Positions 13,101-55,312 of a DNA stretch of 64,000 nucleotides are shown piece by piece (within the stretch, counting starts at the first letter, position 1; every line of letters begins with the position of its first letter). Under the pieces are notes generated by a model. The model ran no database searches and had not been told where the DNA came from. It was given only the letters and a program-made list of their open reading frames with translations. Both the position numbers and the translations under genes were made by a program. The stretch is from Prochlorococcus marinus str. MIT 9313. GTDB lineage: Bacteria > Cyanobacteriota > Cyanobacteriia > PCC-6307 > Cyanobiaceae. The stretch is taken from assembly GCF_000011485.1 (NCBI RefSeq), contig NC_005071.1, positions 1,863,347-1,927,346 on the forward strand, in the 5' to 3' direction.

Positions 13101-14852
13101 ATGGTTTCTCCTCCTCCCCCACCTCCCACTGTTGAGGTAAGAGCCGCGAACTTATTTGTTGGTGATCGCCTCAACATCGATGGTCAGTTAATCGAGGCCC
13201 CTTGGCGCTGGAGAGGCCATAGGGATGGCACTGCAAACCAGCTCTGGCTTCCCCTGGATCTACTGGTCGGACGTTTTGGCTTCCGCAGGTCCACCCAGCC
13301 AAACGGACAGCAATTGCAATGGTATGGAAGCAAAGCCTCTCTGAAATCCCTCCCACAAATCACACTTCAAGATGAAGTGGCATTGAATGTGGCCGAATGG
13401 CTCACGACGACAGGAGTCAAGATCAAGCGGAAAAGCAAGACCCTTCACGTTGAACTGCCAACACCACGCCTCAAAGGTCTTCGGCAGGGCAAGGGCAGCA
13501 ATTCAAATCGTCTGGTGCTTGACCTAAGCGGTCCGGCGCTCGTGCAAAGCCTTGACAACAATCTCCTTCTTAATCTTCAGGCCACCGTCCAGCAGCGTAG
13601 GCAGATGAAGGCATTAGGCCTGATGCCCAAGCAGCAGCGCAATGGCCTAATGCTCATCGGTCAGGCAGAAGCCCTAAGCAGCCTCACCCTGGACAAACCC
13701 TGGCGCATTGTCTTGGACGGTATTGGCAAGCACAGCAACGCAACAAATCTGCGCTCACCACTGCTCAATCCATCCATCCAGGCCCTCATCCAGCGCGGCC
13801 TGATCTTCGACACAAAAGTGGTGAACGTTGGGGTCAAACCATTGCAAATCACCAGGGTCGGTACAAATCTGTCAAAGCAAGGTCTGCTCCTCAGGCCTCT
13901 GCCGCAAATTAACCATCAACAAGGCCTGCGTTTTCTCAACCACTTAGCCCAACCTGCAGACGCTCTGATCGCCATCAACGGGGGTTTCTTCAATCGAGTG
14001 CGCCAGTTGCCCCTAGGGGCCTTAAGACGAGATGGCAGATGGTTTTCAGGCCCCATCCTCAATCGAGGGGCAATCGGCTGGGGCCCTACAGGACATCTAT
14101 CCTTCGGCCGCCTGCAACTTCAACAAGAACTTCAAGGTTCTAAAGGGCAGAGATGGAATCTTGAAACCTTGAATAGTGGCTATGTGCAGCGAGGCCTGAG
14201 TCGTTACACCAGAGCCTGGGGGCCTATCTACCAAGCCCTCAGCGGAGAAGAAAAAGCAATGATGATCATCAATGGGCGAGTCGTACAGAGCTTCCAACAA
14301 GTGCAGCTGGCCCGGGGGGTTCCTCTGAGCAAGGATGGGGATCTGGTCGTAGCCAGAGGAGGCTTCCCTTTACCGGCGGCGACTGGTGAAACAGTGGTCA
14401 TAAGGATGAAAGCATCACATCCTCTTGGCGAACTGCCTCAAGTGCTTGGTGGTGGTCCATTGCTGCTGCAAAACGGGCGGGTGGTTCTGTCTGGAAGACA
14501 AGAAGGCTTCAGCCCAAGCTTTCTATCCCTTGCTGCTCCCCGCAGTGTGGTGGGCCAAGGTGGTGGCAAGCTCTGGCTACTCACTCTCAAAGGGGCCAGG
14601 GGCAGCGATCCAACCCTGCTGGAGACAAGCCTAGCCCTGCAACAACTGGGGATCAGAGACGGCCTGAACTTAGATGGAGGCAGTTCAACGTCCCTGTTGG
14701 TAGCGAATCAATTGGTTGTAACAGGTCGAGGCACACCCCCCAGAATCCACAACGGCCTTGGCCTCATTTTGCGCCACCACAAAGGCAATCCTAAAAAAGC
14801 TAATGAGCCTCATAAAAATGCCAGAGGTCAGGAGCGAATCGCCAACAAATAA
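13101..14852 (+). CDS. Phosphodiester glycosidase / NAGPA-domain protein
   Basis: A 583-residue protein whose C-terminal half (about residues 270-565) matches the phosphodiester glycosidase family related to the human uncovering enzyme: ALIAINGGFFNR, GALRRDGRWFSGP, NRGAIGWGP, LPQVLGGGPLLLQNGR, SRF-like APRSVVGQ and the terminal GLNLDGGSSTSLLV. The N-terminal part (about 10-180) looks like a beta-rich module related to copper-amine-oxidase-like or AMIN domains (QLWLPLDLLVGRFGF, RLVLDLSGP). No signal peptide is seen; the start after ATG 13101 is MVSPPPPPPTVEVRAANLFV, and an upstream start is not evident. Role in exopolysaccharide or cell-wall trimming is a guess. Divergent from glsF. Confidence 0.82.
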   Translation: MVSPPPPPPTVEVRAANLFVGDRLNIDGQLIEAPWRWRGHRDGTANQLWLPLDLLVGRFGFRRSTQPNGQQLQWYGSKASLKSLPQITLQDEVALNVAEWLTTTGVKIKRKSKTLHVELPTPRLKGLRQGKGSNSNRLVLDLSGPALVQSLDNNLLLNLQATVQQRRQMKALGLMPKQQRNGLMLIGQAEALSSLTLDKPWRIVLDGIGKHSNATNLRSPLLNPSIQALIQRGLIFDTKVVNVGVKPLQITRVGTNLSKQGLLLRPLPQINHQQGLRFLNHLAQPADALIAINGGFFNRVRQLPLGALRRDGRWFSGPILNRGAIGWGPTGHLSFGRLQLQQELQGSKGQRWNLETLNSGYVQRGLSRYTRAWGPIYQALSGEEKAMMIINGRVVQSFQQVQLARGVPLSKDGDLVVARGGFPLPAATGETVVIRMKASHPLGELPQVLGGGPLLLQNGRVVLSGRQEGFSPSFLSLAAPRSVVGQGGGKLWLLTLKGARGSDPTLLETSLALQQLGIRDGLNLDGGSSTSLLVANQLVVTGRGTPPRIHNGLGLILRHHKGNPKKANEPHKNARGQERIANK

Positions 14853-44462: not shown

Positions 44463-45451
44463 AGCAAGGCCATGCGGATAGGAATGCCATTGCGCACCTG
44501 CTCTTCGACAAGACTGATGGAGTGATCATCCAGTAATGATCCACCCAACTCAACCCCTCTGTTCACAGGCCCAGGATGGAGCAGAGGTACAGGCTTCCCG
44601 CATAACTTCAGGCGCTCGTGGGTGAGCCCATAATCACGATGAAAGCGGTTTAGATCAGTAAGCAAATGCTGATGCATCCTTTCCTTCTGCAACCTCAAAG
44701 TCATCACCGCATCCGCACCAGGCAACGCCTCCTCAAGGGTTCGCACCACCTCCACACAACCACGATGTAGAACAGGGTCATGGGCCTGACCAGGAGGTGG
44801 CGCCTCGACAAAAGCGACAAAATCTTGAGGGACCAGGCTCGGCGGACCACACAACACAACATCAGCACCGCAAGCAGTGAGTGCCCAAAGATTGGATCGC
44901 GCCACGCGCGAGTGAAGGACATCTCCAACGATCACGATCCTTCGGCCTTGTATGGCTTCAGGCAGAGGGTGATCCGGATCAAAATGATGGGCGAGAGTGT
45001 AGAGATCAAGCAATCCCTGGCTGGGATGGCTATGCAACCCATCGCCACCATTGAGCACGGCCGTGCGTTCGCCTGAACGATCTAAAGCACACGCAAGTTG
45101 TTCGGGAACACTGGTCGACCCATGACGCACCACCAGCACATCAGCGCCCATTGCGACATAGGTGCGTGCTGTATCAAGCAAAGTCTCTCCCTTGCTGAGG
45201 GAACTGCTAGCTGGAGTGAAACTCTGCACATCAGCCGAAAGACGACGGGCCGCCAACTCAAAGCTGCTTCGGGTACGCGTACTGGGCTCAAAAAACAACG
45301 TTGCCACCAAACGCCCCTGCAACGCCGGCAACTTGCGTGCACCCGTGACTGGCATGGAGCGGAAGCGATGCGCTAACTCCAGAACAGAGCTGTAATCCTC
45401 AAGGGAGAAGCTGGCCAGATCAAGGATGTGACGATGAGACCAGCCGCTCAT
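44405..45451 (-). CDS. pyrB: Aspartate carbamoyltransferase catalytic chain
   Basis: Second step of pyrimidine synthesis: carbamoyl phosphate plus aspartate. Carbamoyl-phosphate loop [42 protein letters not shown]-like [34 protein letters not shown]. 348 residues. Its ATG overlaps the stop of the glycosylase gene as ATGA, so the two are co-transcribed. Confidence 0.95.
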
Positions 45452-46155
45452 TGGCCATCACTGGCAACAGGAGCCCAGGCTTGTTGCAAAGGCGGCGTGC
45501 GATCTCCCTTGGCACGGCGACTAATACTGCGACAGTTCTTGAGATACCAACGCCAAGGAAGATCCTGTCCTTGAGAGATACCGATCCTGGTTGTGCTCAC
45601 AATCGTTGGCGTACCGAAGGTAGCCGGCCTAGTTGCCAGCCACACGTCATTCTCTCCTGTAACGGCTGCTCTGTCATGGGAGGGATCCAAACCAAAACGA
45701 CGCGCCAATAAAGCGGGCCCCGCTGCTACGCGTTCCGGTTCATCCGGAAGTGCAATCGCCCTCAACAAAACACCATTGGCCCATTCGGCACGATCGGTGA
45801 CCACATTCACGCAGTGGTGAATGCCATAGCTCACATACACATAAAACCGCCCTGGCTCACCAAACAGCGTTTCGTTCTGCGGCGAACGCCTGCGGTAGCC
45901 GTGGCAGGCAGGTTCATCCTGGGAATACGCCTCCGTTTCCACAATCACGCCCCAAAGCAAACTTCCATCCTCTTGGCGTTTCGCCAACCTGCAGCCCACC
46001 AGCTCAGGTCCCACCACCTCTGCAGGGCGGCAGAAGAAGGATTGAGATAGAGCTGGGAAATCCTTGGCGATGCGGTGGGTGGCTATGGGCGTGGCTGGAA
46101 CAACAACCTTCTTCGCCCAAGTCTGACAAGGCTGCTTGCAGAAGAGACAATGCAA
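45448..46155 (-). CDS. mpg: 3-methyladenine DNA glycosylase (AAG/MPG type)
   Basis: Base-excision repair of alkylated and deaminated purines. Family motifs [37 protein letters not shown] with the catalytic Glu region, [35 protein letters not shown] and [15 protein letters not shown]. 235 residues; the N-terminus from ATG 46155 ([10 protein letters not shown], three cysteines in ten residues) is longer than the core and may be misplaced, but no better start is visible. Marks the left border of the TPR region. Confidence 0.88.
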
Positions 46156-46180
46156 TGAACGAAGCCCTTGCTCTGATGTC

Positions 46181-47116
46181 AGAAGCGACGGAAACTCATA
46201 AGGCGACCTGAGTTGTAGAGGCGTCTTGCATTGACGATGCCCTTCTCCAGTAGCTATCTGTAGCTCCCACCAACAAACAACCTTCAGAGGAGGAAAAATT
46301 CGCAGACTTTCCTGGTTTGCGGTTTGGTTTCTGGCTTATGCGTAGCCAGCCTCAGCGGGAATCCAATAGGGATTGACATCAGACTTCTGCATACCCTTAT
46401 TTATTTTGTCCTGCAGAATCTCAATTGACTTATCGACACACTGATCAATAGACCAGCCGCAATCATGTGGCAGAGGAGTCAACGAAAAAGAGAGCACATG
46501 CCTTACACCTTTCTTTGGACTTACCCCTCGATGCAGAACCCTGGAAGGGCAAAACCACACACCTGATCCTGCATGATCTGGAGAGAAAGTGTAATGGTCG
46601 GGATCCAACGTGGCAGGATCAAGACCTAGGTCTTTTACCGATCCTTTTACTCGATCAGCATATGACTCACGCTGCCAAATAAAACCCATATAATCTGTTT
46701 CCTCTGACAATCTTCTAGATAGAGACGTATCAACAAATTCCGTAGCCCCACCCTCTTCTCGCTGAGAATTAAGGTAAATCATTAATTTTGGGGTCCAAAC
46801 ATTATAATGATTGTCGTAATGCCATGCATCAGAGATAGCCTGATCATCAGGTCCCTTGGCAAAGTAAATACAATTCCATACCAAGTGTGGAAAATCAGTG
46901 TGTTTAAATATTTTCCCCAAGACAGAACCTAAGACGCCCTTCTCAGATACCGCACGGATCAACGCTGCACTCATCGCATTGGCACCCTCAAACCCATTTA
47001 CAAACTCAGCACATAAATCTTCTGGCAATATCTCATCTTCTACCAGATACCCATTTCGATACAAGTGCTTTTCATTTGCCCTATCACCTTCTCCTTTCAA
47101 AAACAAAGGAGGAAAA
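46181..47116 (-). repeat. Long direct repeat A, copy 1
   Basis: 936 bases that recur at 48296-49231, shifted by exactly 2115. Reading by eye I find only two differences (46683/48798 and 46728/48843). It contains the whole C-terminal oxygenase part of TPR gene 1, its stop, and 155 bases beyond, including a fragment of a decayed gene. Confidence 0.93.
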
Positions 47117-48003
47117 AGTTGAGGCTGAATTTTTCTCACAGTTTCGTATGCAGAAAACGGCGCAGAAGCACCAGAAAGGGCAGTCATCTCCACATCCTCC
47201 AAAAGGTTTAATACCCTCCTGTGATACCAGTCAAAAACTAAATCACAGAGAGAAAAAGACAGCAAGGTTGAATCTTCCATTGCATTTACTGTAGAAAGAG
47301 CAGAAACGATTTGCCGTGCAGCCTCAAACTCTCCCGCTTCCTTCAATACTAAGCCCAAAGCAAAATACACATCCGCAAAATCTGGCTTCAACTCGATCGC
47401 TTTTCGATAACTCGCAATCGCTTCCTCAACCTTTCCCTCTTCCTTCAATACCAAGCCCAAAGCAAAATACGCAGCTTCAAAATCGGGCTTCAAATCGATC
47501 GCATTCCGATAACTTGCTTTCGCTTCTGAATACTTTTCTTGCTCCTTAAAAGTATTGCCGAGATTCAACCATGCTCCTGCAAGCCCAGGCTGCATCGAGA
47601 CAACACGCCTCAAGACAATCTCTGAATACTCAAAGCGCTCAACTTCCTTCAGGCAGATACCCAAGTTATTCAGCGCTTCTGGAGACTCAGCCCTCAAACC
47701 AAGTGTCTTCTCATAACAAGAGATTGCCTCATCCCACCTCTCAGAATCTTTAAATACATTTCCAAGGTTGTAGATGGCATCAGGATTATCCGGCTGCAGC
47801 GAAATTGCCCTACTTAAGAAGTCAATCCCTTCATCAAATCTCTTCTTCTCACGCTTAATAGAACCACAGAAGTTAAGCGCATAAAAGTTATTAACATCAA
47901 CAGCAAGCACTTGCTGATAAATCGCTTCTGCCTTATCCAGCTCACCCTGCTTATGCAATGCAACCGCAGCCTGCAGCTGCTGCATGATCTCCTCTTGATT
48001 CAC
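46336..48003 (-). CDS. TPR protein with Fe/2OG-type oxygenase domain (gene 1)
   Basis: 555 residues from a GTG start at 48003. Residues about 1-265 are TPR units (34-residue pattern AIASYRKAIELKPDFADVYFALGLVLKEAGEF), a protein-interaction scaffold. About 300-545 is a double-stranded beta-helix oxygenase-like domain: DAWHYDNHYNVWTP with metal ligands His395 and Asp397 (HxD), and VLHRGVSPKKGVRHVLSFS with distal His491 and the co-substrate Arg. Probably an iron- and 2-oxoglutarate-dependent hydroxylase; substrate unknown. A weak ribosome-binding site (GGA) precedes the GTG. The 3' module is almost identical to gene 2, while the TPR half is diverged. Confidence 0.82.
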   Translation of the reverse strand: MNQEEIMQQLQAAVALHKQGELDKAEAIYQQVLAVDVNNFYALNFCGSIKREKKRFDEGIDFLSRAISLQPDNPDAIYNLGNVFKDSERWDEAISCYEKTLGLRAESPEALNNLGICLKEVERFEYSEIVLRRVVSMQPGLAGAWLNLGNTFKEQEKYSEAKASYRNAIDLKPDFEAAYFALGLVLKEEGKVEEAIASYRKAIELKPDFADVYFALGLVLKEAGEFEAARQIVSALSTVNAMEDSTLLSFSLCDLVFDWYHRRVLNLLEDVEMTALSGASAPFSAYETVRKIQPQLFPPLFLKGEGDRANEKHLYRNGYLVEDEILPEDLCAEFVNGFEGANAMSAALIRAVSEKGVLGSVLGKIFKHTDFPHLVWNCIYFAKGPDDQAISDAWHYDNHYNVWTPKLMIYLNSQREEGGATEFVDTSLSRRLSEETDYMGFIWQRESYADRVKGSVKDLGLDPATLDPDHYTFSPDHAGSGVWFCPSRVLHRGVSPKKGVRHVLSFSLTPLPHDCGWSIDQCVDKSIEILQDKINKGMQKSDVNPYWIPAEAGYA

Positions 48004-48450
48004 CAGGCATTTCCAACTTCATGCCATTTTACGGCCACTTCTTGCCACGCCTCACTACCTGACACCCCTATCCCAATCAATCCAATAAATCCTGCTCCAG
48101 ATGATTGAGGGAATAAGTCCTTTAATCAGGTATAAAGATCAGGAAACTCTCGACATCCCCTAAGGAGCACGTTTCTAGGTTGCGATCGACATGACTACTA
48201 AAGCGGCCTGAGATGCCCTCTGGATCAGGAGAGAGAAGCCTGCTGCACTTACGTATCCCATCCCAGCTCGTCCAGCAAATCCTTCATCACCGAGTAGAAG
48301 CGACGGAAACTCATAAGGCGACCTGAGTTGTAGAGGCGTCTTGCATTGACGATGCCCTTCTCCAGTAGCTATCTGTAGCTCCCACCAACAAACAACCTTC
48401 AGAGGAGGAAAAATTCGCAGACTTTCCTGGTTTGCGGTTTGGTTTCTGGC
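48004..48450. other. Spacer between TPR genes 1 and 2
   Basis: About 450 bases. The first ~90 bases (the leader of gene 1) resemble the leaders of genes 2 and 3 (shared CACCAGGCA, ATTTTACG, ACTTCxTGCC and TCACTxCCTGA blocks), supporting common ancestry. The middle shows no gene. The right part holds the gene remnant at 48249-48368 and the start of repeat A copy 2 at 48296. Confidence 0.6.
48249..48368 (-). pseudogene. C-terminal remnant of a lost gene
   Basis: The minus strand from 48368 to a TAA at 48249 reads [18 protein letters not shown], then MSFRRFYSVMKDLLDELGWD and T, a well-formed protein C-terminus, but in-frame stops lie just upstream (TAG at 48369-48371 and a TGA further on) and there is no start. 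The corresponding place after TPR gene 1 carries the same sequence only as far as ...MSFRRF, where the repeat breaks (46181). I read this as the tail of a decayed gene that was carried along when the region was duplicated. The parent protein is not recognised. Confidence 0.6.
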
Positions 48451-49231
48451 TTATGCGTAGCCAGCCTCAGCGGGAATCCAATAGGGATTGACATCAGACT
48501 TCTGCATACCCTTATTTATTTTGTCCTGCAGAATCTCAATTGACTTATCGACACACTGATCAATAGACCAGCCGCAATCATGTGGCAGAGGAGTCAACGA
48601 AAAAGAGAGCACATGCCTTACACCTTTCTTTGGACTTACCCCTCGATGCAGAACCCTGGAAGGGCAAAACCACACACCTGATCCTGCATGATCTGGAGAG
48701 AAAGTGTAATGGTCGGGATCCAACGTGGCAGGATCAAGACCTAGGTCTTTTACCGATCCTTTTACTCGATCAGCATATGACTCACGCTGCCAAATAAGAC
48801 CCATATAATCTGTTTCCTCTGACAATCTTCTAGATAGAGACGCATCAACAAATTCCGTAGCCCCACCCTCTTCTCGCTGAGAATTAAGGTAAATCATTAA
48901 TTTTGGGGTCCAAACATTATAATGATTGTCGTAATGCCATGCATCAGAGATAGCCTGATCATCAGGTCCCTTGGCAAAGTAAATACAATTCCATACCAAG
49001 TGTGGAAAATCAGTGTGTTTAAATATTTTCCCCAAGACAGAACCTAAGACGCCCTTCTCAGATACCGCACGGATCAACGCTGCACTCATCGCATTGGCAC
49101 CCTCAAACCCATTTACAAACTCAGCACATAAATCTTCTGGCAATATCTCATCTTCTACCAGATACCCATTTCGATACAAGTGCTTTTCATTTGCCCTATC
49201 ACCTTCTCCTTTCAAAAACAAAGGAGGAAAA
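48296..49231 (-). repeat. Long direct repeat A, copy 2
   Basis: Second copy of the 936-base repeat (see 46181-47116). It holds the oxygenase module of TPR gene 2 and its downstream flank. The boundary on the high-coordinate side is sharp: identity ends at AGGAGGAAAA and the next bases differ completely. Confidence 0.93.
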
Positions 49232-50526
49232 TGCCAAGCATCGACTGTTTTAACAACCTCGAAGGCAGAGAATGGCTTAAAGCCATAAAAAAGAGAAGCA
49301 CTCTCCACTTCCAACGAAAGATTCAATACCTTCCTTTGATGCCAATCCAAAACCAAATTACTGGAGGAGGTAACCAGCAAAGATGATTCCTCAATTACAT
49401 TCAAATTATAGAGAGCAGAAACGATTTGCCGTGCCTCCTCAACCTCTCCCTCATCATTCAACACTGTGCCCAGATTCAAATAAGCATCCACAAAGTCAGG
49501 CTTCAACTCGATCGCCTTCCGATAACTCGCAATCGCTTCCTCGACGTCTCCCTCCTCTTTCAAGATATTGCCTAAATTCAAATACGCATCCGCAAAGTCT
49601 GGCTTCAAATCGATCGCTGTCCGATAACTAGCTTTCGCTTCCTCTGCTTCTCCATGATCTTTGAATACATGCCCTAAATTCAAATACGCATCCGCAAAAT
49701 CTGGCTTCAAATCGATCGCTTTCCGATAACTAGCTTTCGCCTCCTCAAACTCTCCATTCTCTTTCAATACAATCCCTAATCCAAAATACGCAGCTTCAAA
49801 ATCGGGCCTCAACTCAATCGCATTCCGACAACTTGCGATCGCTTCCTCAACCTTTCCCTCCTTTTTAAGAGCACTTGCAAAGTTGAGGTGCAGCTCTGGA
49901 GACTCAGGCGCGAGAAGCAGAGCAAAACGATATTGCTCTAAAGCAGCGTTGTACTCATACTTATCCTCCAACAACTTGCCATAGTTAATTCTTAGATTCA
50001 CATCTTGAGGGCTTGCTTCTATTGCTTTAGAAAATATCTCTTCAGATTCATCCAGCTTCTCTTCGTCAGCTAAGAGTGCTCCAAGGATGCTTGCCGCACC
50101 AGCATGAGCAGCATTGAGTTGCAAAGTATTCCTATACGCCTGCTTGGCCTCTTGGACATTCCCAATCTCCCTTAGAGCATTTCCAAAACAAAACCAAGAT
50201 TCTGGAATCTGCTGATTCCGCTGCAATGACTGCTGAAAGATACGAGCAGCTTCCTCATGCTGGCCAACCATGACAAGGATATTCCCCAGATTTATAAACG
50301 GGATCGGAGTACTATCATCTTCTCGAATAGAAGCCTGTATTAAATCAAAAGCTTGTTGCAGATTTCCACGATCTTTATAAATACAGCCAAGAAGATGCAA
50401 TGAATTAGGTTCCTTGGGATTCACTGAAAGGATCTGTATACAAATAGCCTCAGCAGCATCAAGATCCTTACTCTGATATGCCTTCACTGCTGCCTGCTGC
50501 TGCTGGATGATTTCTTCTGGATTCAC
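48451..50526 (-). CDS. TPR protein with Fe/2OG-type oxygenase domain (gene 2)
   Basis: 691 residues from GTG 50526, preceded at seven bases by a strong ribosome-binding site (AGGAG). Residues about 1-400 hold around eleven TPR units; about 430-685 is the oxygenase domain with metal ligands His531, Asp533 and His627. Against gene 1 the oxygenase part differs only by Thr/Ala and Phe/Leu; against gene 3 the first ~270 residues differ by a single Ser/Ala seen at NSLHLLG/NALHLLG. The protein is therefore a chimera of the two neighbours. Likely a TPR-targeted hydroxylase; substrate unknown. Confidence 0.83.
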   Translation of the reverse strand: MNPEEIIQQQQAAVKAYQSKDLDAAEAICIQILSVNPKEPNSLHLLGCIYKDRGNLQQAFDLIQASIREDDSTPIPFINLGNILVMVGQHEEAARIFQQSLQRNQQIPESWFCFGNALREIGNVQEAKQAYRNTLQLNAAHAGAASILGALLADEEKLDESEEIFSKAIEASPQDVNLRINYGKLLEDKYEYNAALEQYRFALLLAPESPELHLNFASALKKEGKVEEAIASCRNAIELRPDFEAAYFGLGIVLKENGEFEEAKASYRKAIDLKPDFADAYLNLGHVFKDHGEAEEAKASYRTAIDLKPDFADAYLNLGNILKEEGDVEEAIASYRKAIELKPDFVDAYLNLGTVLNDEGEVEEARQIVSALYNLNVIEESSLLVTSSSNLVLDWHQRKVLNLSLEVESASLFYGFKPFSAFEVVKTVDAWHFPPLFLKGEGDRANEKHLYRNGYLVEDEILPEDLCAEFVNGFEGANAMSAALIRAVSEKGVLGSVLGKIFKHTDFPHLVWNCIYFAKGPDDQAISDAWHYDNHYNVWTPKLMIYLNSQREEGGATEFVDASLSRRLSEETDYMGLIWQRESYADRVKGSVKDLGLDPATLDPDHYTFSPDHAGSGVWFCPSRVLHRGVSPKKGVRHVLSFSLTPLPHDCGWSIDQCVDKSIEILQDKINKGMQKSDVNPYWIPAEAGYA

Positions 50527-50615
50527 CAGGCAGCTCCTGCTTCTTACTATTTTACGACAACTTCATGCCTTGCATCACTTCCTGATGGTCTAGCAACACC
50601 TTCAACGACAGATAC
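49497..50615 (-). repeat. Long direct repeat B, copy 1
   Basis: About 1.12 kb matching 52098-53216 at a shift of 2601, covering the 5' leader (89 bases), the GTG start and the first nine to ten TPR units of gene 2. Differences are few except around 49640-49680, where one TPR linker differs (gene 2 reads LGHVFKDHGEAEEA, gene 3 LGNILKENGEFEEA). Confidence 0.88.
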
Positions 50616-50637
50616 ATCTCTAATGAGAGACAAGAAA

Positions 50638-53127
50638 TCATTGAAATTTCAGAGAGACGGGAATAAAAGATACTGAAGATATATCCGACAAATCAGCATC
50701 TCCCACAAATGTCAGGAAGCGACCAATAGACTCTTTTGCAAAATCAACAACAATCCTTCGCTCGTCAAAAACCACTGCCTGCAGAGCATTAATCTGGCAA
50801 CCATCAATCTCAAACTCCATTACAGGAGAGACGCTGGCTTCGCTTTTCAACGTAATGATGGCACGATCCAAAACAACAGAGGAACCTAGATCGAATGAAA
50901 TACGAATAATACATTCATTTACATTCGACTGCCATTGCAATAATCCATGCACTGAGAGGCGAGCATAAACAAGTGGAAGCTTATTCTCACGATATACCCC
51001 AAAGGCTTGCACGTCTCGAATACACAACTCATCTAACTCGACAGGGTAAGATTTAAGATCCTGATGACGTGACTGAATATTGAGCAGCAACTGAGAAAGA
51101 AGGAGAGTTTTAATCTGATCGCTTAAATCACCTTCCTCAGGCAAATGGACATCATCCGTTAACCATTTGCGCCGAGTCTCCAAGAGACCAGGATCCACCA
51201 AAAGACGATGCAATGAAAAGAAATATATTCCATACCTTAGGCAACACTCATTAAGACAATCGTTAAAATGTTTTGCCGCAAAGTTTCGATGCTCTTCAAG
51301 ACCAAAAGAATTAAACTGTGAGCCACTTCCATAAGGACCGCAAACAATAACGGGAAAGCCCTTATTCTTTATTTTAAGTACAAAGTCAAAGTAAGCCTGT
51401 GCAGAATTAGTTGCCACTTCCTTGATTGATTTTTGCTGAAGATATGCTTGCTTTACAATATGGGCTCGACAGTCAATTTCCCCAAAACACAGCAAGATTG
51501 CACTTGAATCAGAGTCGAGCCCTACAAGCTTCTCCTCGACGCGGCTACCTCCTCCACTGGAAGATTTCTCGCTAGCCAATTTAAACGCAGTAGCAGGACC
51601 AACATAATTAACTGAGACGCCTGGAATACCCTTAAAGGCATTAACGTGAGAGTCCCCAAAGGCAACAATCTCAGAAGCTTCTATTATTAACAGAATTTCT
51701 TCGATTAGATTGCTTTTTGGATTGACTCCTTCCAATACCTTGTCAGGCACTCTGCCTTCCAATGCTCTAAAAAGCTGGACGTAATCAACCAGATTAAATT
51801 CATTAGCCCTCGAGGAGAAGTATTGAATAGCCTCTTCTCTCCTATCAGCCTGAAAAAAGGCATGCCCTATTGATTGACGTGCATTGTAGTGGTTGTCGTC
51901 AACATCGAGGCACTGTTTCAAAGCAATCAAAGCACTGTCATGGTCTCCAGAATGACTATTCACTAAAAACAACTGATAATATGCCTCGGAAAAATCAGGC
52001 TTCAAATCAATCGCCTTCCGATAACTCGCAATCGCTTGCCCGACATCTCCCTTATCTTTCAAGATATTGCCTAAATTCAAATACGCATCCGCAAAGTCAG
52101 GCTTCAACTCGATCGCCTTCCGATAACTCGCAATCGCTTCCTCGACGTCTCCCTCCTCTTTCAAGATATTGCCTAAATTCAAATACGCATCCGCAAAGTC
52201 TGGCTTCAAATCGATCGCTGTCCGATAACTAGCTTTCGCTTCCTCAAACTCTCCATTCTCTTTCAAGATGTTTCCTAAGTTCAAATACGCATCCGCAAAA
52301 TCTGGCTTCAAATCGATCGCTTTCCGATAACTAGCTTTCGCCTCCTCAAACTCTCCATTCTCTTTCAATACAATCCCTAATCCAAAATACGCAGCTTCAA
52401 AATCGGGCCTCAACTCAATCGCATTCCGACAACTTGCGATCGCTTCCTCAACCTTTCCCTCCTTTTTAAGAGCACTTGCAAAGTTGAGGTGCAGCTCTGG
52501 AGACTCAGGCGCGAGAAGCAGAGCAAAACGATATTGCTCTAAAGCAGCGTTGTACTCATACTTATCCTCCAACAACTTGCCATAGTTAATTCTTAGATTC
52601 ACATCTTGAGGGCTTGCTTCTATTGCTTTAGAAAATATCTCTTCAGATTCATCCAGCTTCTCTTCGTCAGCTAAGAGTGCTCCAAGGATGCTTGCCGCAC
52701 CAGCATGAGCAGCATTGAGTTGCAAAGTATTCCTATACGCCTGCTTGGCCTCTTGGACATTCCCAATCTCCCTTAGAGCATTTCCAAAACAAAACCAAGA
52801 TTCTGGAATCTGCTGATTCCGCTGCAATGACTGCTGAAAGATACGAGCAGCTTCCTCATGCTGGCCAACCATGACAAGGATATTCCCCAGATTTATAAAC
52901 GGGATCGGAGTACTATCATCTTCTCGAATAGAAGCCTGTATTAAATCAAAAGCTTGTTGCAGATTTCCACGATCTTTATAAATACAGCCAAGAAGATGCA
53001 ATGCATTAGGTTCCTTGGGATTCACTGAAAGGATCTGTATACAAATAGCCTCAGCAGCATCAAGATCCTTGCTCTGATATGCCTTCACTGCTGCCTGCTG
53101 CTGCTGGATGATTTCTTCTGGATTCAC
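50638..53127 (-). CDS. TPR protein with SGNH-hydrolase-like C-terminus (gene 3)
   Basis: 829 residues from GTG 53127 behind the same AGGAG site as gene 2. Residues about 1-430 are around twelve TPR units. About 480-690 resembles an SGNH/GDSL esterase fold: IVAFGDSHVNAF with Ser493, FGEIDCR (550-555, block III position), and DDVHL with Asp658 and His661 as the DxxH pair. The last ~130 residues look like a beta-sandwich (VYARLSVHGLLQW; RIVVDFAKESIGRFLTFVG). Such proteins often remove or add acyl groups on glycans, but activity is inferred. The 5' part is a near copy of gene 2. Confidence 0.8.
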   Translation of the reverse strand: MNPEEIIQQQQAAVKAYQSKDLDAAEAICIQILSVNPKEPNALHLLGCIYKDRGNLQQAFDLIQASIREDDSTPIPFINLGNILVMVGQHEEAARIFQQSLQRNQQIPESWFCFGNALREIGNVQEAKQAYRNTLQLNAAHAGAASILGALLADEEKLDESEEIFSKAIEASPQDVNLRINYGKLLEDKYEYNAALEQYRFALLLAPESPELHLNFASALKKEGKVEEAIASCRNAIELRPDFEAAYFGLGIVLKENGEFEEAKASYRKAIDLKPDFADAYLNLGNILKENGEFEEAKASYRTAIDLKPDFADAYLNLGNILKEEGDVEEAIASYRKAIELKPDFADAYLNLGNILKDKGDVGQAIASYRKAIDLKPDFSEAYYQLFLVNSHSGDHDSALIALKQCLDVDDNHYNARQSIGHAFFQADRREEAIQYFSSRANEFNLVDYVQLFRALEGRVPDKVLEGVNPKSNLIEEILLIIEASEIVAFGDSHVNAFKGIPGVSVNYVGPATAFKLASEKSSSGGGSRVEEKLVGLDSDSSAILLCFGEIDCRAHIVKQAYLQQKSIKEVATNSAQAYFDFVLKIKNKGFPVIVCGPYGSGSQFNSFGLEEHRNFAAKHFNDCLNECCLRYGIYFFSLHRLLVDPGLLETRRKWLTDDVHLPEEGDLSDQIKTLLLSQLLLNIQSRHQDLKSYPVELDELCIRDVQAFGVYRENKLPLVYARLSVHGLLQWQSNVNECIIRISFDLGSSVVLDRAIITLKSEASVSPVMEFEIDGCQINALQAVVFDERRIVVDFAKESIGRFLTFVGDADLSDISSVSFIPVSLKFQ

Positions 53128-53216
53128 CAGGCAGCTCCTGCTTCTTACTATTTTACGACAACTTCATACCTTGCATCACTTCCTGATGGTCTAGCAACAC
53201 CTTCACCGACAGATAC
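52098..53216 (-). repeat. Long direct repeat B, copy 2
   Basis: Partner of 49497-50615, covering the 5' leader and N-terminal TPR part of gene 3. Single-base differences seen include the codon for Ser/Ala near 53005/50404 and a few in the leader (CATGCC/CATACC, CAACGAC/CACCGAC). Confidence 0.88.
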
Positions 53217-54310
53217 TCCTCCGCAGATGCATAAGGTTTGTGCTACAGGATCTACTTCGCCTGAACCTCTAGTTGTCGATTATTGATCTTCAGTATCGAG
53301 GCTTCTTTAGCAAATGACAGCTGATTGCATCAGCTTTTTGTAATACTGTAACAACGCTTGCTTATAGCAACCTGACTTACTCATCTTTGTCTTTTTCATC
53401 AGCTCTTCCTCCAGACGATGAAAGCAGGACTTCTCTCTCTGATTAAAAGAGATATTACTTATTGGTGTTTCCATCATTACCTTCCTGTCTAATTAAATGA
53501 TGTAGCCTTATTGGGATCAGAATCGAGATGGCGAGTAGAAGCAATCTGAGATGACAAGCCAAAGCACATTTAAAAGCTGCTTTTCTTATACCTTGAGCAA
53601 GATTTCATCAGACTCGATCCTTAATTTATTTAGGCTCCACACAGTTTCCATAGAGATCATAATCATTCAGGTCCTCTTTCACATCTTTTCAAGACTCTTA
53701 GAGAATTTAATTCTCAAAGGTCAGATTCTATGTATAGGAATTTTAGTTTTTGCTATTCAATCAGCAAATATTCCTGACATTCTCAGAATCTCTTACCCTC
53801 TACTCTATACAGATGAGTTGGAAGGCTTGACTGAGGGTCAGAAGAATGAGAGTAATGCTGCGTCATGTTGCACTGAGTATAACCCGATTACTTGCTGATT
53901 GGTGATGATTCTCCTTCCGTTTCCTACTCAAAGCCACTGCAGTTAAAGGGGCTTTTATTTCTTCAATCACGCCCATAACTCCGCATACAAGCTTCCAATA
54001 CCTAGTACTATTAACCGCAAACCAGGTGCAATTTTCACTTATCCAGGCACTCAACCCATCCACAAAAAATGCAAGGCACAGCAAATAAAGACTAAGCATA
54101 TTTTGCCCTACATTTACTCATATTCCCTCAACCAATTCACCAAAGGCTTCTCTCCCTATTGCCATCACGGATGCCATTGGCTCATCTAAATCTCACCGCA
54201 ACCTGATGCCACTCTTCTGGGATTTTATTGAGCCGAATGTCAAAGGCAAACGGCAGCTGTTGCTGTCCTGGTGCAACTCTCTCCTATCGCTTCTATTTCT
54301 TCTGGAAGAA
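53217..54310. other. AT-rich spacer between TPR gene 3 and the DUF481 gene
   Basis: About 1.1 kb of low-GC DNA. It contains the 56-codon small gene at 53307-53477. Two further frames are weak: 53551-53898 (+, 115 codons, Ile/Leu/Ser-rich with one hydrophobic stretch) and 53863-54099 (-, 78 codons, one N-terminal hydrophobic helix MLSLYLLCLAFFVDG, with AGGG a few bases upstream). At 54150-54355 the plus strand has a stop-free run reading HRNLMPLFWDFIEPNVKGKR with no good start, which could be a gene relic. None is strong enough for its own entry. Confidence 0.45.
53307..53477 (-). CDS. Small basic helical protein, possibly ribbon-helix-helix-like
   Basis: A 56-codon frame too short for most screens: MMETPISNISFNQREKSCFH, then RLEEELMKKTKMSKSGCYKQ and ALLQYYKKLMQSAVIC. 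An AGGAAGG ribosome-binding site lies two to five bases before the two tandem ATG codons. The middle (helix, KTKMSKS turn, helix KQALLQYYKKL) looks like the helix-turn-helix part of small DNA-binding or antitoxin-like proteins. No partner toxin is seen nearby. Fold and function are inference. Confidence 0.5.
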   Translation of the reverse strand: MMETPISNISFNQREKSCFHRLEEELMKKTKMSKSGCYKQALLQYYKKLMQSAVIC

Positions 54311-55312
54311 TTAAAACTCTGTACCGAGTTTAAAGTTGAACGTATTGTCGATAGCGGGTGAATGAAGAGCACTATAAATTGAACGCGCCACTAAAGACAT
54401 ATAGAATTTAGAGTCTTTTGAAGGGAAAAACTTTAGCGTACCACTCAAATCATTTCCTGCCGCCATGCCATTAACGAATGATCCTGTCAATTGATTTTTA
54501 ATTGACAGGCGAAATTTATTATTCACATCCCATTCTATAGCAGCCCCGATTGTTCCAGATGGAATGATCTCACCGCAGTATTTTCCCAATGCAATTCCAT
54601 CCGAAACGTAATCACCTGTGCTGCAACCAGAGCCGCCATCAAACCAGATCAGAGAAGGACCTAAAGAGACTCTTAAAGATAATTTCTTATGGTCTAAAAC
54701 CTTATAGCCAACACCAACTGAAAAAACATTCGTGTTAACGCCAACATCATTTAGTGCATTGTAAGTGTAATCCGTTGAGGCATATGCACTCCATTTAGTA
54801 GAAGATAAAATTCTGTCATAGCGAATAGAGAATGCGCCTTGATTGGTATCAATCGTTGACACACTTTCAGCATCTACACTCTTATCAAAGTCAAAGCTCG
54901 CCGAAGCATTCAACTCATGATTCGTTCCCTTAAAACGAGTGGAAGCTGAAATAGCATAACCAAATGACAAATCATCTCCCGTATTCGATCCGTCAATGCC
55001 TACGTCAACCGAGCTGAGCCATCGCGATGGAATGGGCTCTAGTTTAATCAAAGAGGCATCAATCTCAATACGGCCAAAATAAGGACTAAGCAGGACTTTG
55101 ACCTTATTGCTACTTTCTTCTGGCAAGTACTCGCCACTGACCACATCTCCGTTAATCAGTTTAAATGTAAGATTTTCAGCTCGTACATATTGAGGGGCGA
55201 TCATTGTGCCAATGGCAACAAAAGTACAAACCCTCTTAGCCAGCAAGGATGAAAGATAGGTCAAAGATGGGGCAATAGCACGATCAATACTATAAACGAA
55301 AACACCTCTCAC
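54311..55312 (-). CDS. DUF481 outer-membrane beta-barrel protein
   Basis: 333 residues. An N-terminal hydrophobic export segment (LLAKRVCTFVAIGTMIAPQYVRA, cleavage likely after VRA) precedes a short SH3-like part (FKLINGDVVSGEYLPEESS) and a barrel of alternating strands (AYASTDYTYNALNDVGVNTNVFSVGVGYKV; LSLRVSLGPSLIWF) ending in a terminal Phe (FNFKLGTEF), the outer-membrane insertion signal. Matches the YdiY/DUF481 family. The real start may be an internal codon nearer the signal peptide. Lower GC than the core genes. Confidence 0.78.
   Translation of the reverse strand: MRGVFVYSIDRAIAPSLTYLSSLLAKRVCTFVAIGTMIAPQYVRAENLTFKLINGDVVSGEYLPEESSNKVKVLLSPYFGRIEIDASLIKLEPIPSRWLSSVDVGIDGSNTGDDLSFGYAISASTRFKGTNHELNASASFDFDKSVDAESVSTIDTNQGAFSIRYDRILSSTKWSAYASTDYTYNALNDVGVNTNVFSVGVGYKVLDHKKLSLRVSLGPSLIWFDGGSGCSTGDYVSDGIALGKYCGEIIPSGTIGAAIEWDVNNKFRLSIKNQLTGSFVNGMAAGNDLSGTLKFFPSKDSKFYMSLVARSIYSALHSPAIDNTFNFKLGTEF

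Follow-up and report, generated by a model that had tools for sequence, protein, structure and literature searches.

Probable exchange of tailoring enzymes behind conserved TPR heads at a variable site beside MPG in Prochlorococcus marinus MIT 9313

Introduction

Three neighbouring genes of Prochlorococcus marinus str. MIT 9313, arranged in tandem on the minus strand and each opening with a GTG start, join N-terminal TPR repeats to enzyme-like C-terminal domains, and they raise the question of how such parts come to be combined and what the combination may serve. They lie in a window of 64,000 nucleotides, by which the whole stretch of DNA analysed is meant (contig NC_005071.1, positions 1,863,347 to 1,927,346), within an insert of low GC content (43% vs 54% for the remaining window). 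TPR-enzyme fusions are already known; the new part is the replacement of the tail under an apparently orthologous head, an exchange that is not described in the open-licence papers searched. The best explanation of the locus is that the interval beside the MPG gene is a variable site whose genes are built of two exchangeable parts: a head, i.e., the predicted N-terminal TPR superhelix (types A and B), and a tail, i.e., the putative C-terminal tailoring enzyme. It is probable, in our judgement, that TPR docking heads have been re-armed here with different tailoring enzymes via recombination at the TPR repeats; the exchange of parts is well supported, and its function is a reasoned guess.

Organization of the locus

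The features of the site, all on the minus strand, are as follows.

45448..46155, minus: MPG (methylpurine-DNA glycosylase), conserved left flank of the site
46336..48003, minus: gene 1 (555 aa), type-A TPR head (7 units) and 2OG-Fe(II) oxygenase-like tail
46181..47116, minus: 3' module, copy of gene 1 (oxygenase domain and 155 bp past the stop); 2 mismatches in 936
47494..48003, minus: type-A head, gene 1 codons 1-170; its G163 counterpart lies in the same interval with another tail
48451..50526, minus: gene 2 (691 aa), type-B TPR head (11 units) and the oxygenase tail of gene 1
48296..49231, minus: 3' module, copy of gene 2; pairs with 46181-47116
49232..49490, minus: private middle of gene 2 (last TPR unit and linker), diverged from genes 1 and 3
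49491..50615, minus: 5' module, copy of gene 2 (leader, GTG, codons 1-345); 17 mismatches in 1,125
49645..49678, minus: 34-bp mismatch patch within one TPR unit, with 13 of the 17 mismatches of the 5' module
50638..53127, minus: gene 3 (829 aa), type-B TPR head (13 units) and SGNH-fold tail
50638..51873, minus: tail region of gene 3, predicted SGNH fold (GDSH, GEID, DDVHL) and low-confidence C-terminal beta-rich part
52092..53216, minus: 5' module, copy of gene 3; pairs with 49491-50615
52501..53127, minus: type-B head, gene 3 codons 1-209; related heads occur at other loci, in G163 and G011
53128..53216, minus: leader of gene 3, with a copy upstream of gene 2
53307..53474, minus: small ORF (55 aa) upstream of gene 3; its G163 counterpart is upstream of the MPG-side TPR gene
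54311..55312, minus: DUF481 gene, right side of the site, present in G003 too

The TPR units were counted by eye in a strict 34-residue phase from codon 1, and the N-terminal parts that hold them exceed the Pfam gathering score (e.g., TPR_1 130, 163 and 199 bits vs a cut-off of 27.8). The resulting 7, 11 and 13 units per gene agree with the "about ten" that an earlier note, made from the sequence alone, had given for the 5' module of genes 2 and 3. A Pfam search with the small ORF returned no match.

Mosaic structure of gene 2

The 3' ends of genes 1 and 2 agree at 934 of 936 positions, the stretch beyond the stop codon included, and no synonymous difference is present among the 169.7 sites of the oxygenase module (gene 1 codons 297-555). 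Upstream of this module the identity falls to 301/409 (47117-47525), and dS amounts to 0.55 over the TPR end (codons 171-239) and 0.70 over the linker (codons 240-295). The 5' ends of genes 2 and 3, in turn, are identical at 1,108 of 1,125 positions, with leaders matching at 87/89 (50527-50615 vs 53128-53216) and a single synonymous difference in 180.3 sites over head codons 1-280. For the 34-bp patch no donor was found within 46000-54000 (best other match 35/46).

The earlier note had described both near-identical modules, which the alignments bear out, and had taken gene 2 for a chimera of its neighbours. Both ends do match the neighbours, but the 259 bp between the two shared blocks have diverged from gene 1 and gene 3 alike, and a simple fusion is rejected on this ground. 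Since this middle is private and the dS of the linker is high, gene 2 is an older TPR-oxygenase paralogue of gene 1 that was overwritten at both ends by two recent exchanges. Recombination at TPR repeats, which had also been proposed, accounts for part of the picture: the 5' breakpoint (codon 346 of gene 2) is inside a TPR unit and the junctions between genomes described below fall in or at the end of such units, but the 3' breakpoint (codon 432) stands at the start of the oxygenase domain, outside the TPRs.

Near-identical blocks of this kind might be misjoined repeats, given that 936 and 1,125 bp exceed a typical Sanger read. An assembly artefact is nevertheless hardly credible when the genome assembly is a single contig of 2,410,873 bases, each block copy has flanks of its own, gene 2 has its own middle, and two TPR-enzyme genes occupy the same interval in G163, another genome of the family.

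The two tails

In the tail of genes 1 and 2, the HxD...H iron triad and the distal Arg (H114, D116, H210, R220) are invariant in 5/5 aligned sequences, two of which are the near-identical window copies. The structural model, of modest confidence (pLDDT 67), adopts a double-stranded beta-helix, and each of the 50 matches listed by VIA-align 2 is a 2OG-type enzyme (best Z 13.5, rmsd 3.6, 187 aligned). The domain stays below the Pfam gathering score (TauD 16.1 vs 27 bits) and falls in no named Pfam subfamily; AspH was matched neither by Pfam, nor by PDB sequence, nor among the 50 structural matches listed. An Asp at the iron site marks a hydroxylase rather than a halogenase, and because an Asp stands there the tail looks like a hydroxylase. 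Its relatives are rare, with 3/300 genomes of the family and 5/386 of the phylum, the source genome being counted in both; the remaining four of the phylum matched over short stretches only, covering 36 to 154 positions of the model (best E 4.2e-6). The search of genome contigs yielded three loci in two genomes. The homologues in G011, whose genus entered this search with one genome, are without a TPR head. In G002 an oxygenase-domain relative (L043 3858-6014) is fused to a GSCFA domain (E 1.1e-35), and a further ORF of glycosyltransferase look lies near it.

The C-terminus of gene 3, called SGNH-like in the earlier note, does have a predicted SGNH fold and is unrelated to the oxygenase tail. 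Of the conserved blocks of SGNH/GDSL hydrolases, the block I serine (GDS) and the DxxH of block V (G73, S75, H76, D240, H243) are invariant in all 15 sequences of an alignment of 14 ORFs of other genomes and window gene 3, where the motifs read GDSH and DDVHL. The Asn of block III (GxND) is missing, with GEID or GEVD instead, and the tail is classed by its SGNH fold rather than among the classical members; it also stays below the Pfam cut-off (Lipase_GDSL_2 19.1 vs 32.9 bits). The core model is good (pLDDT averaging 81-98 per block of ten residues between 61 and 270) and forms the three-layer fold (Z 14.2, rmsd 2.9, 165 aligned to 4rw0_A in VIA-align 2), and the beta-rich part that follows, about 140 residues long, is modelled with low confidence. 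Among SGNH/GDSL carbohydrate esterases, the predicted fold resembles a sialate O-acetylesterase (7pzh_FFF, Z 13.6, rmsd 3.0, 170 aligned) and the PatB O-acetyltransferase (8tlb, Z 12.6, rmsd 3.7, 182 aligned), with which the tail has in common the GDS serine and the DxxH dyad; it differs from them in the replaced block III Asn, in an alignment identity of 14-17% and in its fusion to TPRs. The labels hydroxylase and esterase given earlier are in keeping with the predicted folds, except that the block III Asn is missing from the second tail.

Relatives of the SGNH tail are present in 25/300 family genomes, including the source genome. From the 34 matches, one of them in the source genome, 26 ORFs from 29 loci of other genomes were examined, and TPRs precede the tail in 23/26: a home-made HMM recognized them in 16/26, and Pfam in 7/7 of those missed that it was applied to, three ORFs with fewer than 100 residues before the tail being left out of the Pfam check. 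Viral contigs hold 69 loci with relatives (L144-L212). Where the frame is open, 16/18 are stand-alone ORFs of 196-246 codons, and the GDSH and the E/D of the GEID motif are kept in 15/15 aligned sequences, taken from 21 inspected loci of the 69 (three had stops in the match and three were left out by choice). The predicted SGNH-like class is common to viral contigs and TPR proteins.

Head A and the exchange seen in G163

The type-A head (query: gene 1 codons 1-168) was searched in 300 genomes of the family. Scores were 366 bits in the source genome, 282 in G163, 239 in G002 (with three stops), 151 in G016 and 128 and 109 in G163 again, clear of generic TPRs, the next score being 88 bits. Matches to head A occur in 294/300 genomes; with TPR genes so general in the family, certain pairings of head and tail may go back to separate, ancient fusions.

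In the MPG-flanking interval of G163, the head is 130/170 (76%) identical to that of gene 1, and the tail is an unrelated sulfotransferase-like domain. MPG, pyrB and ndh are kept in the same order beside the TPR genes there, and the proteins are 76% (MPG), 77% (PyrB) and 77% (NDH) identical. Because the head has diverged like these flanking proteins, it is best read as a putative orthologue of the gene 1 head that descended with the locus, and the equal divergence of head and flanks cleanly shows one exchange. This gene is separated from MPG by an integrase and by another TPR gene, whose A-type head is more distant (42-46%). Homology to the G163 proteins extends to codon ~238 for type A and ~374 for type B, both ends of TPR units. 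Across 31 genomes of G163's genus, scores of at least 295 bits were found only in G163, whose own genes were part of the profile, and the next other genome reached 106 bits. Altogether, head A and its relatives bear the oxygenase in the source genome, sulfotransferase-like tails in three genes of G163 and a Methyltransf_25 domain (E 9.1e-13) in G016.

The same interval of G002 contains a decayed gene, with a head A of 69% identity and three stops and, 160 bp on, the remnant of an SGNH tail (35%, three stops). The flanks are 94-98% identical and the head only 69%; decay would explain this divergence, and so would a different A-type head. G002 and G011 carry AG- names, which we take to denote single-cell genomes, and the stops in G002 could for this reason be errors. 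G163 is the only genome in which the head is as close as the flanks and the tail is another.

These data bear on a plainer account, in which tandem duplication and gene conversion among paralogues made the mosaic, the TPRs being recombination-sticky and the enzymes carried along by chance with no functional meaning. TPR arrays are abundant and repetitive, conversion alone accounts for the homogenisation of genes 1 and 2, and the decayed gene of G002 indicates that such a gene can be dispensable. What this account leaves unexplained is why, in the same interval, a head as close as its flanks (76%) should carry an unrelated tail, and why heads are repeatedly paired with tailoring enzymes, and we regard it as unlikely.

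Head B and the recurrence of tail classes

With the type-B head (query: gene 3 codons 1-209), scores of 447 and 446 bits were followed by 254 in G163 and 187 in G011, and the next was 91. Both relatives are at other loci than the MPG site: that of G163 (58-59%) has a methyltransferase-like tail (a weak TIGR04325 match of 19.6 bits vs a cut-off of 80, and no Pfam match), and that of G011 (48-49%) an SGNH tail. Since G011 joins a type-B head to an SGNH tail, the sequences suggest that the pairing found in gene 3 is old. The tails are unrelated between classes (scores of 27-46 vs a shuffled maximum of 53) and score 231-1415 within classes. Sequence comparison thus shows the close relatives of one head bearing unrelated tails in different genomes, and one tail class on different heads; the cassette-like pairing of TPR regions with different enzymes, suggested earlier from the window, is backed more strongly by these relatives than by the window itself.

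TPR-sulfotransferase fusions are known elsewhere (e.g., L044 7650-9629, Sulfotransfer_3 E 1.1e-23), but the G163 tails, unlike these, match no Pfam or NCBIfam family themselves. Their label is based on a relative in G079 (E 9.0e-16) that barely attains the Sulfotransfer_2 cut-off (22.5 bits, cut-off 22) and on a presumed sulfotransferase motif. Tails of this class were found in 15/141 genomes. G079 has a TPR-SGNH gene near a TPR-sulfotransferase-like gene, plus a TylF-like TPR-methyltransferase; the heads of the SGNH and methyltransferase genes are 76% identical in DNA over 546 bp at a tail score of 31, and the head of the sulfotransferase-like gene is weakly shared (71/194 and 49/121 residues). 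In G069 a TPR-SGNH gene is likewise near a TPR-sulfotransferase-like gene, the two heads being 65% identical in DNA over 508 bp, and a PhyH oxygenase is present as well. Some 50 bp of the leader sequence preceding the start codon are alike among the TPR-enzyme genes, least so in G011, G016 and one G163 gene, and the core of the gene 3 leader resembles those of G163 genes. The stretch 53087-53720, which includes the small ORF, is 72% identical in DNA to the stretch upstream of the MPG-side gene of G163, a gene with an A-type head.

Proposed mechanism and possible targets

The exchange would proceed by homologous recombination or gene conversion, for which the 102-bp TPR repeats and the shared leader would provide the homology. 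The head would dock a common partner, for which a polypeptide or a surface-glycan carrier is the likeliest candidate, and the tail would modify it by hydroxylation, O-deacylation or acyl transfer, sulfation or methylation. An Asn stands at the OGT-type ladder position in 3/7, 6/11 and 6/13 units of genes 1, 2 and 3. O-GlcNAc transferase (OGT) provides the best non-engineered PDB sequence matches of gene 1 (residues 19-231, E 1.3e-59); unlike OGT, the window genes have no GT41 catalytic match, their tails being an oxygenase and an SGNH fold. Because of the ladder position, of the resemblance to OGT and of substrate binding by the AspH TPR, docking of a polypeptide or glycan carrier is the favoured reading by analogy. 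Surface glycans or proteins, as the earlier note had it, may be the target. According to PMC6817910, it is the TPR domain of AspH that holds the substrate, and the oxygenase deprived of it fails to hydroxylate the target; replacement of a tail would then bring new chemistry to the same target. As in AspH and the TPR-containing prolyl 3-/4-hydroxylases, the TPRs of genes 1 and 2 are N-terminal to a 2OG-Fe(II) oxygenase, and P3H1 chains are among the Foldseek matches. Those enzymes, in contrast, are eukaryotic and of the ER, the window head type also bears unrelated enzymes, and the window oxygenase domain has no Pfam family above the cut-off. The abundance of TPRs in low-light strains has been linked instead to photosystem II assembly (PMC11357015).

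A more specific possibility is that the head binds a ribosomal precursor peptide, which the tail modifies. A Nif11-leader (prochlorosin-type) precursor lies at the site in G003, a TOMM maturase pair, i.e., a SagB-family dehydrogenase and a SagD-family cyclodehydratase, both above cut-offs, adjoins the TPR-sulfotransferase-like genes in G163 (L115 1769-5474), and the resemblance to OGT would also fit. Island neighbours may be accidental, though; the neighbours of these tail classes in G068, where one gene has an SGNH tail and another a sulfotransferase-like tail, are nucleotide-sugar-type genes, and two glycosyltransferase genes are near the other TPR pair of G163, and we give this reading little credence. 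The resemblance to prochlorosins, which combine a constant leader with a variable core, lies in a constant targeting part with a variable active part, in the same organisms and in the G003 site; prochlorosins are peptide substrates, whereas here whole enzymes vary, and the comparison is an analogy only.

Returning to re-armed docking heads, a stronger form of that reading would have a few TPR heads with fixed targets persist across picocyanobacterial genera, one of them at the MPG-side site, while recombination between TPR repeats replaces the tails time after time. One target, be it a surface glycoprotein, a glycan carrier or a precursor peptide, would then undergo hydroxylation, deacylation, sulfation or methylation depending on the lineage. 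This broader form is conceivable but rather doubtful. The site shows enzyme swaps behind a conserved head, which touches on the origin of strain-specific picocyanobacterial chemistry, and poses the question whether head A has the same partner with the oxygenase of the source genome as with the sulfotransferase-like tail of G163. If the reading is true, small genomes use arrays of repeats as places where domains are replaced by recombination.

Other contents of the site

The site comparison covers G002, G003 and G163; G001 and G004, with which the genus is complete, gave no MPG match. The site has low GC in all four genomes that include it (source, G002, G003, G163). In G002 it holds, in addition to the decayed head-A/SGNH gene, a carbamoyltransferase and an SGNH-like gene; in G003 the Nif11-leader precursor, a partial MPG copy and DUF481, with no TPR gene among ORFs of at least 90 aa; and in G163 two TPR-sulfotransferase-like genes around a phage-type integrase. 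Three other origins were rejected. For a tRNA-targeted island, the three tRNAs of the window (7050, 41808, 58058) are not at the insert edges; for a phage origin, neither tail was matched by phage records and no oxygenase relative was found in viral contigs; for a defence system, PADLOC gave weak generic TPR or PrimPol-type matches only.

Where the repeat of genes 2 and 1 ends, the minus strand (about 48250-48330) encodes a short peptide-like stretch that spans the boundary, FRRFYSVMKDLLDELGWD, which had no match among the 14 loci compared and is perhaps the remnant of another gene. To the right of gene 3, a non-coding remnant (53919-54310) of transposase-like look is 71-83% identical in DNA to L037, L039 and L040 of the source genome, where the copies sit beside Nif11-leader (prochlorosin-type) precursor genes; Pfam gave no convincing match for the transposase-like fragment. 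The remnant also occurs at the MPG site of G003 (L042 4293-5685). L037 and L039 contain a fragment of the MPG 5' end too, and L040 only a short piece, and dispersed prochlorosin cassettes may have originated from the MPG flank. An association between lanthipeptide genes and TnpA-REP transposases is cited in PMC10783134. In G163, 132 bp lying upstream of the first TPR gene (L115 6365-6496) recur at 84% identity at 13279-13410, inside the MPG gene located after the second TPR gene, in its 5' part; here too a portion of the MPG 5' end adjoins a gene of the island.
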